In this document: piece by piece, positions 942-10,997 of the stretch
Layout: each line of letters starts with the position of its first letter
How positions within the stretch are numbered: the first letter of the stretch is position 1
Source: Candidatus Dadabacteria bacterium
GTDB taxonomy: Bacteria; Bdellovibrionota_C; UBA2361; J135
Assembly: GCA_003694225.1 (NCBI GenBank)
Contig: RFKT01000217.1
Location: 1 to 10,997 of the forward strand
Reading direction: 5' to 3'
DNA length: 10,997 nucleotides
The notes under the pieces: generated by a model
Seen by the model: only the letters and a program-made list of their open reading frames with translations
Told to the model about the DNA's origin: nothing
The model's database searches: none
Translations under genes and position numbers: made by a program

Positions 942-1301
942 ATGGTGTATTGCAAAACGCTTTGCAGGATAGATAGAAATTTATTAGGCGTTTTTTCTAC
1001 TATTTTGGTTTGTCTGATTTTCTTTCAACCTTTTAGTTATGCTCAGGAGGCAAGGGAAATTAAGATTGTAAATCACCGTTTTGTTCCGAGTAAGATCACG
1101 GTGCCTGCCGGAAAGAAGATTAAACTTATTATCAAAAATCTGGATCCAACACCTGAAGAGTTTGAGAGTTTTGATCTTAACCGTGAAAAGATAGTTGCTG
1201 GGAGAGGAGAGATTACACTTTTTATTGGGCCTCTTAAGAAGGGGGAATATGGGTTTTTCGGCGATTTCTACCGAAACACTGGAAAATTGATAGCGGAGTA
1301 A
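942..1301 (+). CDS. Secreted cupredoxin-fold protein of an FTR1 iron-uptake operon
   Basis: This 119-residue protein has a basic N-terminus (residues 1-13), a hydrophobic core (about 14-29) and a likely signal-peptidase site after SYA near residue 34. The rest, about 85 residues, has the beta-rich pattern of the small cupredoxin domain found beside FTR1 permeases (EfeO N-domain-like): RFVPSKITVPAGKKIKL, the conserved PTPEEFES motif and a closing GPLKKGEYGFFGDF. It would act in the periplasm, passing iron to or oxidising it for the permease encoded 24 bases downstream. The mature part has no Cys or Met and only one His, so a classical type-1 copper site is absent. The ATG at 942 is preferred over a TTG at 858: it has AGGA six bases upstream and gives a clean signal peptide, while the longer version would put 28 odd residues ahead of it and span the palindrome. 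The family call is good; the metal role is inferred. Confidence 0.8.
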   Translation: MVYCKTLCRIDRNLLGVFSTILVCLIFFQPFSYAQEAREIKIVNHRFVPSKITVPAGKKIKLIIKNLDPTPEEFESFDLNREKIVAGRGEITLFIGPLKKGEYGFFGDFYRNTGKLIAE

Positions 1302-1325: not shown

Positions 1326-2876
1326 ATGGACTGGATATCTACATTTTTGATTGTTTTCCGTGAGGTTGTTGAGATCTCTGTAGCTTTAGTGCTTCTTATA
1401 GCTGCCACAAGGGGAGTTGCCGGCAGGGATAGGTGGATCTTAGCAGGAATTGCCCTGGGGATAGCGGCTTCAATTGCAGTTAGTAGATTCGTTTCAATTA
1501 TCTCTCATAGCTTCCAGGGAGTCGGACAGGAGCTTCTTAATGGATGGGCTCTGGCAATTTCTACACTCCTCATCGGGTATACTGTTGTTTGGATGGGAAC
1601 CCACGGAAAGAAGATTGCCAGGCAAATTTCAGAAACCGGCTCTGCGGTGCTTGAAGGGAAGAAGCCTCTTTACGCTCTATGCGTACTTATTGGCCTTACT
1701 GTATTTAGAGACGGAGCGGAGATAGTGCTTCTTTCTCATGGATTGTTTGTAGCTAGTAAAGATGCCTATACATTATTAGTTGGATGCGCAGGTGGGCTTT
1801 TAGCTGGAGTTTTATTTGGAATTGGCATGTACAAAGGCCTTGTAAGGATTAAGACTGACATTCTCTTTATGGTACTAAGTATACTTTTAGCTTTGCTTGC
1901 AGCCGGTATGGCATCTCAGTCAGTGGCCTTTTTTTCTGCCGCAGGGGTGCTTCCATACCTTTCAGAACCTCTCTGGGATACATCATCTCTGCTCTCTGAA
2001 AGCTCTATACTTGGCGGGTTTATGCATATCGTTATAGGCTATTCATCCAGACCCACTGGTATGCAGGTTATCTCTTATTTTGGAGTGCTTGGCGCCATAT
2101 GGGTGATGTTTAGAATTTCGTCTCGTTCAGTACAAACTATAAAGGTGTGTACGCTGTTTCTAGGTATAGTCTCAGCATATGTGTTTGGTTTGAGAAATAC
2201 AGCGTACGCAATTGATAAGATTTACTCTCCGATTGTGCACGAGGGAGAAGTAGAGATAGAGCAGAGAGGAACATATACATTTGACAGCATAGATAGTAGG
2301 GACGCTAAATTAAAAGATAAGATGGGCATAGGATTTACACCTGCTTCGAGATGGGGTACCGAACTTTATTTTGTAACCGTAAAATCCAAAGGGGAAGAGG
2401 CTGAAATCGCGGCTTTGGATTGGGAAAACAGGTTCCAGCTCTTTGAACAGGGAGAGCATTGGCTCGATATCGGGCTTTATGGAGAGTATGCACTATCAAC
2501 TTCCGGAGGAGCTGACAAGGTAGAGGGCAAGCTTCTTTTAGAGAAGGAGATAGAGAGCAGGTTCGTGTCACGGGCTAATATTATCTTTGAGAGAGAGGTT
2601 GGCGCTGGCTCCGGAGATGAAATTGAAGGGGGAGTGTCTATGAATTTATTTTACCGCTATCATCCGCATTTTATGCCCGCTGTTGAGGCCTTTTATTCCG
2701 TAGAGGATATAACTGAGTCTGGCTCCTATGCGGAGAGAGAGCTTTATCTAGGCCCGGCTGTTTACGGAGCCTACGGCGGATGGAGGTATGAGCTTTCCTT
2801 AGTAAAGGGCGTAACCTCCCAATCCACAGATTGGATCGGACGGTGGGTGCTGGAGTACGAGTTTTATCTTCGGTGA
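1326..2876 (+). CDS. FTR1-family iron permease fused to a signal-like segment and a beta-barrel-like domain
   Basis: Residues 1 to about 267 form a full-length FTR1 permease with about seven hydrophobic segments. It carries the iron-binding motif REVVE (12-16), a second RDGAE (128-132, the usual Glu replaced by Asp) and family blocks such as GMASQS (194-199) and LWDTSSLLSE (216-225). FTR1 proteins import iron across the inner membrane. Residues 268-295 look just like a signal peptide: basic start, hydrophobic TLFLGIVSAYVFGL, then NTAYA before IDKIYSP. Residues 296-516 are about 220 residues of alternating short beta strands rich in Tyr, Phe, Trp and Gly, ending WVLEYEFYLR, as in outer-membrane barrels. 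I infer this part is normally a separate secreted protein. The topology agrees: seven spans would leave the FTR1 C-terminus in the cytoplasm, and the eighth would carry the barrel outward. The start has only a weak GCAGAG seven bases upstream and follows the cupredoxin stop by 24 bases. The fusion could be real or come from a lost stop codon. Confidence 0.85.
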   Translation: MDWISTFLIVFREVVEISVALVLLIAATRGVAGRDRWILAGIALGIAASIAVSRFVSIISHSFQGVGQELLNGWALAISTLLIGYTVVWMGTHGKKIARQISETGSAVLEGKKPLYALCVLIGLTVFRDGAEIVLLSHGLFVASKDAYTLLVGCAGGLLAGVLFGIGMYKGLVRIKTDILFMVLSILLALLAAGMASQSVAFFSAAGVLPYLSEPLWDTSSLLSESSILGGFMHIVIGYSSRPTGMQVISYFGVLGAIWVMFRISSRSVQTIKVCTLFLGIVSAYVFGLRNTAYAIDKIYSPIVHEGEVEIEQRGTYTFDSIDSRDAKLKDKMGIGFTPASRWGTELYFVTVKSKGEEAEIAALDWENRFQLFEQGEHWLDIGLYGEYALSTSGGADKVEGKLLLEKEIESRFVSRANIIFEREVGAGSGDEIEGGVSMNLFYRYHPHFMPAVEAFYSVEDITESGSYAERELYLGPAVYGAYGGWRYELSLVKGVTSQSTDWIGRWVLEYEFYLR

Positions 2877-3084: not shown

Positions 3085-3897
3085 TTACTGCCTCAGCTTA
3101 GAAAGTCCCTGATATCTGCAGACTCTTTTTATGTCACACATTACCGCGCATCGTGTAGCATCTTGCACCCAATTATTGGGATTGTTATCTTTTGGAACAG
3201 GTCTGCAGGGAGATTGATTAAATCTATCGAACCTGTACAAAGTATAGTTGTCTGCATTAATCCCAGTTTGCCTTAGTGTCCAGTCACTATTAAATTTTAC
3301 ATCATACCCACCAGGAGTATTTATTAGTAAAGGCCTGCACGTTTTTTGTAATGAGCCTATTTGCTGAAAGTCTTGAGGACAACTGATTGGCTCGCACGAT
3401 GCGTTGTTAATCGCTTCAGTGTAAGCTCCTATCCTTTCATTCATGGAAAATCCTTCTCCTAGTATATCCTTCCTTCCTTCACTGACGCGTGCGCAAGAAG
3501 CGGTAAATTCTGTTCCCGGAGTTGACTTTATGCAAAGTTTGGTAACTTTTCCAAAGAATGTTGCATTAATTCTGAAATCTCCATCCTTTGGATAGGAAAC
3601 TCGGGCTACATCTGCGCCATTTATAAGCTTTCCATCAAATTTTTCCTTACTATATCCGATGTCAGTATATCCGGTTGGACAATCCCCCGGATTGCATGAG
3701 CATTGGTCTATAGCCTCATTGGCTGCTGATTCAGATGAGATATCCGCAAACTCATAATATGACAGTTGCGAATAGTTTTTAAACTTATGGCCGGAACAAT
3801 AGCAGGATAATTCAACTACGTCACCGTACGCACTGAATGCTGAAAAGGCAGCAATTACAGGTAAAAATATGGAAGTATAAATGGTTTTTCTGCTCAT
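3085..3897 (-). CDS. Secreted Cys-rich protein with two 100-residue repeats
   Basis: I do not recognise this 270-residue protein. A signal peptide is clear: MSRK, a hydrophobic core to about residue 20 and a likely cut after AYG (25). The mature part has 14 cysteines, an even number that suits disulfides in the periplasm or outside the cell. It contains a tandem duplication. EAI at 61 and 161, C68/C168, P70/P170, C73-P74/C173-P174, I80-G81/I180-G181 and LIN at 91 and 191 are all offset by exactly 100 residues; an SC pair near 31 and 134 may mark the start of each repeat. A third Cys-rich tail (231-260) follows. It has the best ribosome site of its operon, AGGAGGA seven bases before the ATG. 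It is the last gene, 17 bases after the TadG-like gene, which suggests work with the pseudopilins, perhaps as a tip or outer-surface component. That role is inferred from position only. Confidence 0.75.
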   Translation of the reverse strand: MSRKTIYTSIFLPVIAAFSAFSAYGDVVELSCYCSGHKFKNYSQLSYYEFADISSESAANEAIDQCSCNPGDCPTGYTDIGYSKEKFDGKLINGADVARVSYPKDGDFRINATFFGKVTKLCIKSTPGTEFTASCARVSEGRKDILGEGFSMNERIGAYTEAINNASCEPISCPQDFQQIGSLQKTCRPLLINTPGGYDVKFNSDWTLRQTGINADNYTLYRFDRFNQSPCRPVPKDNNPNNWVQDATRCAVMCDIKRVCRYQGLSKLRQ

Positions 3898-3914: not shown

Positions 3915-4622
3915 TTAATAAAAGATTCCTCTAGTTGCTAAAGATGTTCTAGAGATGTTCTGAATCGAAATACTTCCCCCGGGGAGGAAGTTAGTAAAGA
4001 TCAAGCTTAAATCTTTAAGTGCTATGGTGACTTTAATCGCATTTGCCACATCAGGTGTTGCAATGCCCATACAGCTGGGAGTAACGTCACAAAATTCTTT
4101 ATTTTCTAGCGATGCAAACTTTACCTCGCCATTTAAACTGTAATAAAGCCCCCTTTCTATCTGTAGTGTAAAGGATGGGAAGTCGTATTTCATGCACTCT
4201 GCATAGTCTATGTCTACATCATACGGGGAATTGTAAAGCCGTTTTAAGCAAGTTGAGCCAGATGGGCCATCATGTATTTCATTTCCAGTATTAAAAATCT
4301 TATTTCTCTTTAATGCCTCAAATACTGCAACTTTACTGGACCTCCATCCTGAAAGAGAATCAGGATGCGGAGGGAGATTGGTTCCAAAAACCACCAATCG
4401 AGGTTTTAGAGTCGATGAACCGGCAAGGCTAGCAGAATCCGCAGCACTTTGCGCTGAAGCAAGTGCCATCCCTATTCTGGCATAGTTTATTGCCATGCTG
4501 CTGAGCATTATCGCAATTATAATTAGAGATAACCCAAAAATAATACTGCCCTTTTCTGCCTCAAGGTTGTGAGAGGGCTGAATACAGCGTAATGACTTAC
4601 AGTGCAAGGTCTCTAAGTGCAT
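3915..4622 (-). CDS. TadG-like pilus assembly protein
   Basis: This 235-residue protein has a short basic N-terminus, then EKGSIIFG (23-30), a single hydrophobic span (about 26-47), and immediately after it SAQSAADSASLAGSS (56-70). That Ala/Ser/Asp block is the hallmark of the N-terminal Tad (TadE/G-like) domain. The rest is a periplasmic domain with five cysteines. Unlike its two neighbours it has no Glu at position +5 after the glycine, so prepilin-peptidase cleavage is less certain, as in other TadG proteins. It lacks the long von Willebrand-type domain of classical TadG and is short for that name. The start overlaps the upstream gene's stop by ten bases and has AGGGA about six bases upstream, which suggests translational coupling. 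Confidence 0.75.
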   Translation of the reverse strand: MHLETLHCKSLRCIQPSHNLEAEKGSIIFGLSLIIIAIMLSSMAINYARIGMALASAQSAADSASLAGSSTLKPRLVVFGTNLPPHPDSLSGWRSSKVAVFEALKRNKIFNTGNEIHDGPSGSTCLKRLYNSPYDVDIDYAECMKYDFPSFTLQIERGLYYSLNGEVKFASLENKEFCDVTPSCMGIATPDVANAIKVTIALKDLSLIFTNFLPGGSISIQNISRTSLATRGIFY

Positions 4623-5098
4623 CTATATTCCCTGTCGCAATTCGGTATAAAAAAGCCTTCTTCTATAAAATTTACTTTTCTTATGACATACTGTGGGTGT
4701 ATTGATTCGGGTAAAAGAGGAATAGACGGTTCAGATACTAGTTGAACTTCAAAACGGGGAAGTACTTTGGAAAAATCAAAAGTGACAGAAGCTTGGACGA
4801 TAGTGCTTCCGGATGTTTTGTAGTTGTTTACATATGTCGTGAGAGATGAACACAAGGCGTTTTTTGTTTCTGCGCATGTAGGGTTTCTTCCAAGCGTATC
4901 CATCAATTCCGCCAATGCAGTAGAGGCTTCTCTTGTGGCATTCCCTAACAAGATTTGATCGGATATGTGCTCTTTAAAGTAAAATGATGTGATGGCAATA
5001 ATTTGCAATATCAGCACAAATGGGATGATAAGAAATAAAAATTCAATAATAGAGCTTCCCTTTTCAGGGATTATTTTTAGGAAATAAATCTTCCTCAT
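4613..5098 (-). CDS. TadE-like pseudopilin
   Basis: A 161-residue protein. Near the N-terminus EKG-SSIIEF gives a textbook type IV prepilin site: cleavage after Gly14 with Glu at +5, followed by a hydrophobic span (about 20-38). This is the TadE/TadF-type minor pseudopilin layout, processed by a prepilin peptidase and held in the inner membrane or built into the pilus base. The periplasmic part has two cysteine pairs, one near the middle and one at the extreme C-terminus (NCDREYRCT). An ATG 15 bases further upstream (5113) is possible, but the ATG at 5098 is preferred. It has GAGG five bases upstream, and its ATGA overlaps the TGA of the preceding gene (stop 5095-5097), a classic coupling arrangement. 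Confidence 0.8.
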   Translation of the reverse strand: MRKIYFLKIIPEKGSSIIEFLFLIIPFVLILQIIAITSFYFKEHISDQILLGNATREASTALAELMDTLGRNPTCAETKNALCSSLTTYVNNYKTSGSTIVQASVTFDFSKVLPRFEVQLVSEPSIPLLPESIHPQYVIRKVNFIEEGFFIPNCDREYRCT

Positions 5099-5607
5099 GA
5101 ATTCCTCGTGCATTTGATTAAAAAGGTTGAAGATACTGTAATGTTCTTATTCATGAAAATATCCATGAAACAGAATGGACATGAAGGGTGTGTTTTGTCC
5201 TGCGGCTGTATAGAAATTGTCATAAAATGTGTCTCTAATACCTCTCCATTTTGAACGGTTGTAGCGTCTTCTACAGAGTATGAAGTTGCCCAAAGTCGTG
5301 GACTTTTAGTTAATACGTTTAGATATGAACAGGTAGACTCCAACGCCTCTTTGGCAATTTCTTTGGATGCATCATATATACCGTTGCATTTGAGAGTCGC
5401 TTCAGTTACTGAGGGACACGGAGTAATAGGGTCTGATTGCATTGCCACCGATCTGCCGCCAAATCTCGCGGCTCTGATAAGCTGCTCTACAATGCTGCTT
5501 TGGTACATTAGAGAATTTAGTCCGGAGACTAGAAAGAGAGCCAGAGAGATGATAATGGCGCCTTCTATGGCAAATGCACCGTCAGTAGTTGCAATTAGAT
5601 GCTTCAT
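5095..5607 (-). CDS. TadE-like pseudopilin, first gene of the operon
   Basis: A 170-residue protein starting MKHLIATTDG-AFAIEGA. Gly10 with Glu at +5 (residue 15) is a type IV prepilin cleavage pattern, and a hydrophobic span (about 16-34) follows. The periplasmic portion has six cysteines, including a CPFC pair near the C-terminus. It resembles TadE-type minor pseudopilins by N-terminus and size; the C-terminal part is not familiar. The ATG at 5607 is chosen although its AGGGGG lies very close. A TTG at 5619 would add four residues and has a poorer upstream site. It heads a four-gene unit and is probably transcribed from a promoter in the cysS divergent gap. Tad ATPase, platform, secretin and major Flp pilin genes are not present here. 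Confidence 0.75.
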   Translation of the reverse strand: MKHLIATTDGAFAIEGAIIISLALFLVSGLNSLMYQSSIVEQLIRAARFGGRSVAMQSDPITPCPSVTEATLKCNGIYDASKEIAKEALESTCSYLNVLTKSPRLWATSYSVEDATTVQNGEVLETHFMTISIQPQDKTHPSCPFCFMDIFMNKNITVSSTFLIKCTRNS

Positions 5608-5642
5608 TCCCCCTAACAAAACCTACAGCAAAAACAACACAC

Positions 5643-7217: not shown

Positions 7218-7457
7218 TTATGCGATGTTTGTTATATGTTTTTTTGCGGCGGCTTTAAATTCTTCTGACACATCGCAAAATTCTACAATATCTACACAGT
7301 ATGGGAGATCTGATTCTTCAAACTCTAGCGTTAAATTAAAGTAATCAATAGGAGATAATTTTTCGCCTTCAATTCCTATATCAAAATCGCTGTAACGAGA
7401 CGCCATTCCATCTGCACGCGAGCCGAATACAAATACCCTATACTTGGTAAGATCCAA
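7218..7457 (-). CDS. MNT-type nucleotidyltransferase domain protein, 5' end probably damaged
   Basis: A small MNT-family nucleotidyltransferase fold. GSRADG (12-17), SDFDIGI (23-29) with the catalytic pair Asp24 and Asp26, and a third acidic residue Asp56 in VDIVEF are all present. MNT proteins are often antitoxins that add nucleotides to HEPN toxins, but no HEPN gene is next to it. The only listed start is TTG at 7457, which removes the usual first helix. The same frame stays open for 18 codons further upstream and reads NYLTDDDIKTIRDIIKPV, exactly what the domain's N-terminus should look like, before hitting TAA at 7512-7514. An ATG at 7516-7518 lies one base out of frame. Either a one-base frameshift has broken the gene, a non-standard start is used, or the sequence has an error. 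It is isolated between cysS and the glycosyltransferase. Confidence 0.65.
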   Translation of the reverse strand: MDLTKYRVFVFGSRADGMASRYSDFDIGIEGEKLSPIDYFNLTLEFEESDLPYCVDIVEFCDVSEEFKAAAKKHITNIA

Positions 7458-10340: not shown

Positions 10341-10997
10341 ATGGTTAGGAAGGTTTTTGCAGGTTTTGTTGCGTTATTGCTTGTGTTAGGGGGAAGAGCT
10401 GAGGCACAAACACAGTTTAAGCTGTGCATCAAAAAGAGATTTCGTCTTCCAAATAATCCAAACCGGAAGAGGGTTTTGGCCAGATGGAGAGTAGAGTGTA
10501 AGAGAAACGAGGAGGAGGTAGCAAGCTCTCTTGATAGGGATCTGCTGGCTAGTTTGGCCTCAAAGGTAGAGCAGCAAGAAAGCACTATTACTTCACTAAA
10601 TACCACCGTAAATGTGTTAAGCAACGGCGGTATTGTCGGCCCGCAAGGCCCTACAGGAGAGCCGGGCCCGCAAGGGGCTACAGGGGCAACTGGGCCTCAA
10701 GGGCCTAAAGGAGATCCGGGAGCGCCCGGACCCAAAGGTGACAAGGGAGATACCGGCGCCACAGGACCCCAAGGCCCAACCGGCGCTACAGGGCCTCAAG
10801 GGATAACAGGGCCAACTGGTCCTCAAGGGCCTAAGGGAGATATTGGCCCAACTGGAGCGACAGGACCCACTGGAGCTACCGGCCCTCAGGGACCTGCGGG
10901 AACCTTCGACCCCAATTTGGTAGTAATTAAAAATGTTGTATTTGACAATCTTCCTTATGGCGGAATTATCTCAGCCAAGTGTGATACAGGTTATATC
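10341..10997 (+). CDS. Secreted collagen-like protein (partial, 3' end outside the window)
   Basis: The visible 219 residues show a signal peptide (MVRK, hydrophobic 5-18, cut likely after AEA at 22). Next comes a short basic segment with two cysteines (29 and 53), then a probable coiled coil (about 64-93, [20 protein letters not shown]), and an uninterrupted run of 31 Gly-X-Y triplets (97-189). Last is the beginning of a further domain (190 onward, with Cys213). Glycine in every third place, with common PQ, PT, AT, PK and DP pairs and [12 protein letters not shown] charged pairs, is the pattern of bacterial collagen-like triple helices, and the preceding coiled coil would serve as a trimer seed. 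The protein is probably exported to the periplasm, cell surface or an external fibre. AGAGG lies seven bases before the ATG. It is divergent from mnmG. The function is unknown, and the missing C-terminal domain would be the best clue. Confidence 0.85.
10629..10907 (+). repeat. Gly-X-Y coding repeat, 31 triplets
   Basis: Nine-base periodicity from Gly-X-Y codons runs without a break through residues 97-189 of the collagen-like protein. GAT, GPQ and GPT triplets recur often. Synonymous codons vary (GGC, GGG, GGA, GGT), so this is an older repeat kept by selection on the protein rather than a fresh DNA expansion. It can still vary in length between strains. Confidence 0.85.

Follow-up and report, generated by a model that had tools for sequence, protein, structure and literature searches.

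An FTR1 iron permease fused in one frame to a putative outer-membrane beta-barrel, with a predicted signal peptidase I site between them

General porins are usually regarded as the entry route of ferrous iron through the outer membrane. In Bradyrhizobium, the FbcH cytochrome b/c1 precursor is a single chain that signal peptidase cuts into an exported protein and a polytopic protein of the inner membrane; to our knowledge, bacterial polyproteins cut by this enzyme are few. Importers made of an FTR1 permease and a cupredoxin are already known. In FtrABCD of Bordetella and Brucella, an FTR1-family permease acts together with a periplasmic cupredoxin in the import of unchelated Fe2+, according to the available part of PMC11966278. 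At the outer membrane, FupA of Francisella (PMC4905997) and OmpC of E. coli (PMC7315122) are tied to ferrous iron uptake in the parts of these papers that were accessible, OmpC being a case of a porin for ferrous iron. Among the matches listed, and as far as their text was available, open PMC papers contained no permease fused to an outer-membrane barrel.

A fusion of this kind, its barrel being putative, is encoded in the window, the whole stretch of 10,997 nucleotides analysed here, which is the entire contig C11 of an assembly that is 70% complete and consists of 343 contigs. The window resembles EfeUOB/M in having an FTR1 permease, to which the EfeU model (NF041756) aligns over residues 7–262, and differs from it in that this match stays below the EfeU cut-off (123.7 vs 255 bits); no EfeO or EfeB was seen in the window by Pfam or by eye.

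The fused gene and its operon

A single open frame of 516 codons, free of stops in the open reading frame list and its translation, extends over 1326..2876 on the forward strand and encodes an FTR1 permease, an internal signal peptide and a barrel-like domain (516 aa). Support for the unbroken frame was drawn from independent assemblies, in which full-length relatives are found, and the FTR1–barrel fusion is real. Residues 1–262 (1326..2111) form the FTR1 domain, with Pfam FTR1 (PF03239) matching residues 5–260 at 118.6 bits against a cut-off of 25.3. Two R-E-x-x-E type motifs are expected in this family, and the window protein has R12-E13-x-x-E16 (R-E-V-V-E) and R128-D129-G130-A131-E132, the second being a variant with D for E; R12, E13, E16, R128, G130, and E132 are invariant in the five fused proteins aligned. 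Seven transmembrane helices are likewise expected in the family; for the FTR1 half of the window protein, helices appear only in an AlphaFold model of low confidence. Residues 263–295 (2112..2210) show a tripartite pattern of n-region linker, hydrophobic core, and c-region ending in AYA, so that the order at the joint is basic linker, hydrophobic core, RNTAYA, and then IDKIYSP. Residues 296–516 (2211..2873; 221 residues) are an acidic, putative outer-membrane beta-barrel domain.

The barrel assignment draws on the protein family. The true C-termini of the family end in F in 40 of 51 cases and in F, Y, or W in 45 of 51 (the 52 rows of the barrel tree minus the contig-cut G072); in the window the F is followed by three residues, YLR, so the aromatic end is not strict. 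The beta-alternation of the family profile is 2.05 compared with 1.29 (sd 0.14) after column shuffling, with 0 of 2000 shuffles as high, and the helical moment of the profile is at chance level. This amplitude test was chosen after an earlier count of strand peaks had come out non-significant (14 peaks vs 11.8 on average; 243 of 1000 shuffles had at least as many). When 53 members were scanned at E ≤ 0.5, six matched PF13557, three PF13505, and two DUF6662. In single scans of 20 members, the PF13557 cut-off is passed by the distant G007 and by G182, whose barrel lies beside FTR1, and the barrel of G348, also scanned singly, has a weak PF13505 match; no Pfam match was obtained for six fused barrels scanned in this way, nor for residues 296–516 of the window. 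AlphaFold, run with two-sequence inputs (the window and L013), gave a mean pLDDT of 33.6 for the full length and 42.7 for the barrel, with no residue at 70 or above. A Foldseek search with this low-confidence barrel model returned 411 matches at E up to 10 and none at 0.001 or better; a PDB sequence search with two barrel alignments returned no match, and the one match obtained with the fused alignment was weak and irrelevant. Twelve columns are conserved in at least 90% of the family, six of them acidic, and the net charge over the 52 rows has a mean of −10 (range −42 to +4; −17 in the window). Given these acidic conserved columns and the negative net charge, the lumen would be acidic and favour cations.

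Directly upstream, 24 nt from the FTR1 start, is a gene for a periplasmic protein that resembles cupredoxins and has a signal peptide of its own (942..1301, forward strand; PF13473, 91.8 bits). Its likely start is the ATG at 942, and the longest frame begins at a TTG at 858. A cupredoxin gene lies upstream in 15 of the 16 fused loci scanned, always with a gap of 9–37 nt (15/15), and the contig of the sixteenth (G063) ends first. Since no conserved cysteine was found in 23 aligned cupredoxins, these are presumably not classical type 1 copper proteins. In L013, a Fur-like frame recognized by eye stands directly upstream of the operon. A preliminary description of this DNA had proposed FTR1 in the first ~267 residues and a cupredoxin gene next door, and the two Pfam matches bear out both. 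It had also called the last ~220 residues barrel-like; the family C-termini and beta-alternation agree with this, while the window domain itself has no Pfam match to add.

Several other features of the window were recorded. Upstream of the operon, positions 421–802 contain a degenerate 27-nt direct repeat around GGTACGGGGTAACTTTT, present five times, and a stretch that includes the palindrome GCAGGCTTCTAGCCTGC, present twice. On the reverse strand, 3085–3897 encodes a secreted cysteine-rich protein of 270 residues whose Pfam match, below the cut-off, is probably due to chance, and 3915–5619 holds three small genes resembling TadE/TadG by eye, one with a Tad match (PF13400) of 21 bits against a cut-off of 22.3 and two without a match. 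A 79-residue frame at 7218–7457 (reverse strand) resembles a small nucleotidyltransferase by eye (GSRADGMASRYSDFDIGI), and a protein at 10341–10997, also judged by eye, combines a signal peptide with collagen-like Gly-X-Y repeats and is cut by the contig end.

Recurrence of the fusion and of its separate parts

Looked for in other genomes, as the preliminary description had suggested, the same fusion was found at 19 loci, window included, of which 17 are complete and two (G072, G113) are cut by contig ends. The loci fall into three groups: the window's class accounts for four, the class of G057 (a genome titled Zetaproteobacteria) for 12, and the order of G427 for three. Sixteen were obtained from translated stretches, and G113, G465, and G474 were added later. 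Searching 57 genomes (its own included) with the whole window protein gave matches in eight, with full-length relatives besides the window in G001, G033, and G036 (47%, 43%, and 40% identical, respectively); a further full-length fused relative from G057 is 35% identical. Close relatives do not all carry two separate genes, the arrangement that the preliminary description had set against a genuine fusion: G001, G033, and G036 are fused, and G019 is split. A search for 16S genes found none in G000, G001, G019, or G033. In the third group, identity to G427 is 61% for G465 and 57% for G474; the G427 protein has matches in 13 of 33 genomes of its order. The barrel profile matches in nine of 45 genomes of the window's class, 28 of 78 of G057's class, and 54 of 398 drawn from G057's phylum, a set that overlaps the 78. 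Among the viral contigs searched, no relative was found. Some long FTR1 frames were rejected as fusions: those of G078, G083, G089, and G087 (L137–L140) are FTR1 plus the next gene counted across TAA/TAG, that of G059 has only an upstream extension, and G084 and both G134 copies are without a barrel.

Split versions of the pair also occur. In G019, which belongs to the window's order, FTR1 and barrel are adjoining separate genes, and the barrel gene has an ordinary signal peptide of its own, with AVA directly before IDKIYSP. G036 has one split copy in addition to its fusion, and in Alteromonas macleodii and Pseudoalteromonas xiamenensis the cupredoxin, the permease, and the barrel (annotated as a hypothetical protein) are three genes. 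FTR1 is rare within the window's class, being present in six of its 45 genomes in seven copies, of which four are fused, two have the barrel next door, and one (G041) has none. In G057's class, where 63 of 78 genomes have an FTR1 match, 19 other copies were examined, a part of the FTR1 copies outside the fused set; all 19 are without a barrel and form a separate clade on the FTR1 tree, and 18 of them have a Fur-like frame beside them (by eye), the contig of G087 ending first.

The barrel tree (52 rows, 16 fused), restricted to matches above 100 bits whose frames have 190 residues or more, needs at least seven changes of the fused state, four of them forced by well-supported branches. The FTR1 tree (57 rows, 17 fused), built without L105 (a copy of L032), G465, and G474, needs four changes, all forced. 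Inside the window's fused clade lie the split G019 on both trees and the barrel-less G041 on the FTR1 tree. Left outside the barrel tree were weak relatives, including G007, G008, G015, G031, G137, G170, G245, G357, G359, G365, and G379, together with the split Hydrogenophaga pieces (L032, L105), short pieces (G109, the second G098 contig), and G113, G465, and G474. Since the trees have long branches and gain and loss look alike on them, we limit our claim to three separate groups and repeated joining or splitting. For 19 of the 52 barrels there is no FTR1 on the same strand of the fetched stretch, so the link between barrel and FTR1 is not an exclusive one.

Three further arrangements were noted. 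On a Hydrogenophaga plasmid (L032, 4832–5662), the barrel gene beside FTR1 is broken into two pieces by an in-frame stop, and the pieces are annotated as two hypothetical proteins. In G348 (L106, 3749–7094), barrel and cupredoxin genes without FTR1 adjoin frames that are FeoA/FeoB-like by eye, an apparent change of permease. In G131 and G096 (L094, L113), stand-alone barrels lie beside response-regulator-like and cytochrome-like frames (IPVFARKYGxxCxxCH; by eye), neighbours hinting at another role.

The joint and the competing explanations

The joint was scored in the first 16 of the 19 fused loci, which were also scanned for internal starts. In all 16, the linker carries a net positive charge (+1 to +7), the core of 12 residues has a mean hydropathy of 2.08–3.06, and the conserved mature domain is immediately preceded by A at −1 and A, S, or T at −3; in the other three (G113, G465, G474), an internal signal peptide with a small-x-Ala site was judged by eye. 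The preliminary description had noted a signal peptide ending in NTAYA in the fused gene of the window, carrying an outer-membrane or periplasmic barrel outward, with signal peptidase perhaps separating the halves, a reading that the results support. The first five fused proteins aligned all keep A293 and A295 (A-x-A), and a signal peptidase I site is predicted after A295. The dN/dS values, which are rough since synonymous sites are often near saturation, show purifying selection on the protein across the joint in close pairs: 0.08–0.57 at the junction in eight of nine pairs (the ninth was not computable), compared with 0.06–0.14 for FTR1 (five computable) and 0.06–0.09 for the barrel (four computable).

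The incomplete, fragmented assembly behind the window could by itself raise the suspicion of an assembly error or of a stop codon lost in one genome, the latter being the alternative that the preliminary description had offered. This reading fails because the fusion recurs at 19 loci of three groups, all in separate genomes and those first found only 35–47% identical to the window, and because the joint is under protein-level selection; we reject it, and the chance left to it is negligible. Two products might also be made from one gene through an internal translation start in the last part of FTR1. In the window, an in-frame ATG at residue 261 would yield a full signal peptide, and when ATG, GTG, and TTG are all counted, an internal start with an SD match of at least four bases exists in nine of 16 fused loci. 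However, the ATG of the window lacks an SD match, no candidate start lies 18–45 residues before the cut site in G001, the sole candidate of G114 is a TTG without an SD match, an internal ATG with a match of at least four bases occurs in just two of 16 loci, the candidates stand at differing places, and selection keeps the frame through the joint. For comparison, the ATG of FTR1 itself has an SD match of at least four bases in 11 of 16 loci, the window not among them. As the positions of internal starts are not conserved, translation from the FTR1 start is the simplest source of the barrel; internal starts may be used in single genomes, but as the account of the fused genes in general we consider them quite improbable.

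It is also conceivable that the chain is not cut at all, so that the signal-like span would be an eighth transmembrane helix, with the beta domain tethered in the periplasm and aiding FTR1 or the cupredoxin there. An internal signal can indeed serve a membrane-anchored domain. Yet A/S/T-x-A stands right before the mature domain in 16 of 16 loci, the aromatic C-termini and the beta-alternation are typical of outer-membrane proteins, and in split relatives the barrel domain is a gene of its own, that of G019 behind an ordinary signal peptide, all of which makes an uncut chain unlikely. The first strand seems to begin ~13 residues past the cut site, a tether that would be too short to span the periplasm, so that an uncut barrel could presumably not reach the outer membrane. 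A larger, though still minor, chance is left for a barrel with a different metal or function (efflux, sensing, envelope stability) that is merely co-expressed with FTR1. The 19 barrels lacking FTR1 on their strand fit this idea, and FTR1 proteins for other metals exist. Against it stand the repeated fusion to or co-location with FTR1 and cupredoxin, the Fur-like frame upstream in L013, and the feoA/feoB-like frames beside the barrel and cupredoxin in G348, both recognized by eye.

A proposed two-membrane route and its relation to known systems

With these alternatives weighed, we propose that the fused gene probably encodes a polyprotein that signal peptidase I cuts between an iron permease of the inner membrane and an acidic channel of the outer membrane, and that its products work with the upstream cupredoxin. 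The C-terminus of FTR1 lies inside in the known topology of the family, and given this topology and the positive linker, the FTR1 part would insert in the inner membrane with its C-terminus left in the cytoplasm. The next hydrophobic stretch would then act as an internal signal peptide for export of the barrel via Sec, signal peptidase I would cleave after AYA (A295), and the freed barrel would be folded into the outer membrane by BAM with the use of its aromatic C-terminus. A two-gene operon could in this way supply a cation pore lined by acidic residues for the outer membrane, an iron-handling protein for the periplasm, and an iron permease for the inner membrane. What the sequences show directly is the fused frame and its conservation, the signal-peptide pattern, the lack of an internal start at a conserved position, the beta-like periodicity, and the gene order; that the chain is cleaved, that the barrel sits in the outer membrane, that iron is the substrate, and that acidic residues line the pore is inferred.

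The fuller proposal is more tentative, and we place it somewhat short of an even chance: in three separate lineages, synthesis of a single chain would supply, at a fixed 1:1 ratio, a dedicated Fe(II) pore for the outer membrane and the iron permease of the inner membrane, and so a complete two-membrane ferrous route. That a conserved barrel is made together with the permease, in a single chain, points to such a dedicated pore, and if this is true, ferrous iron has a complete route of its own across both membranes. The fusion is found partly in Zetaproteobacteria, which are known for iron oxidation.

The window is like FtrABCD in combining an FTR1-family permease with a periplasmic cupredoxin, and iron passing from barrel to cupredoxin to FTR1 would resemble the route proposed for that system in the available part of PMC11966278. 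It differs in adding a fused barrel, which that part of the paper does not mention for FtrABCD, and no FtrA- or FtrD-like protein was seen in the window (nine stretches by Pfam, the rest by eye). The likeness to FupA and OmpC is drawn from their described tie to ferrous iron uptake, and a fusion to a permease is not described for either in the accessible text of PMC4905997 and PMC7315122. The operons of Alteromonas and Pseudoalteromonas have the same three parts in the same order as the window, but as separate genes and with FTR1 parts on a distant branch of the FTR1 tree. For the processing logic of the proposed polyprotein, FbcH is a precedent, although both FbcH products stay at the inner membrane, whereas the second product of the window would be a putative outer-membrane barrel; a pair of this kind, one partner for each membrane, would join the bacterial polyproteins cut by signal peptidase.
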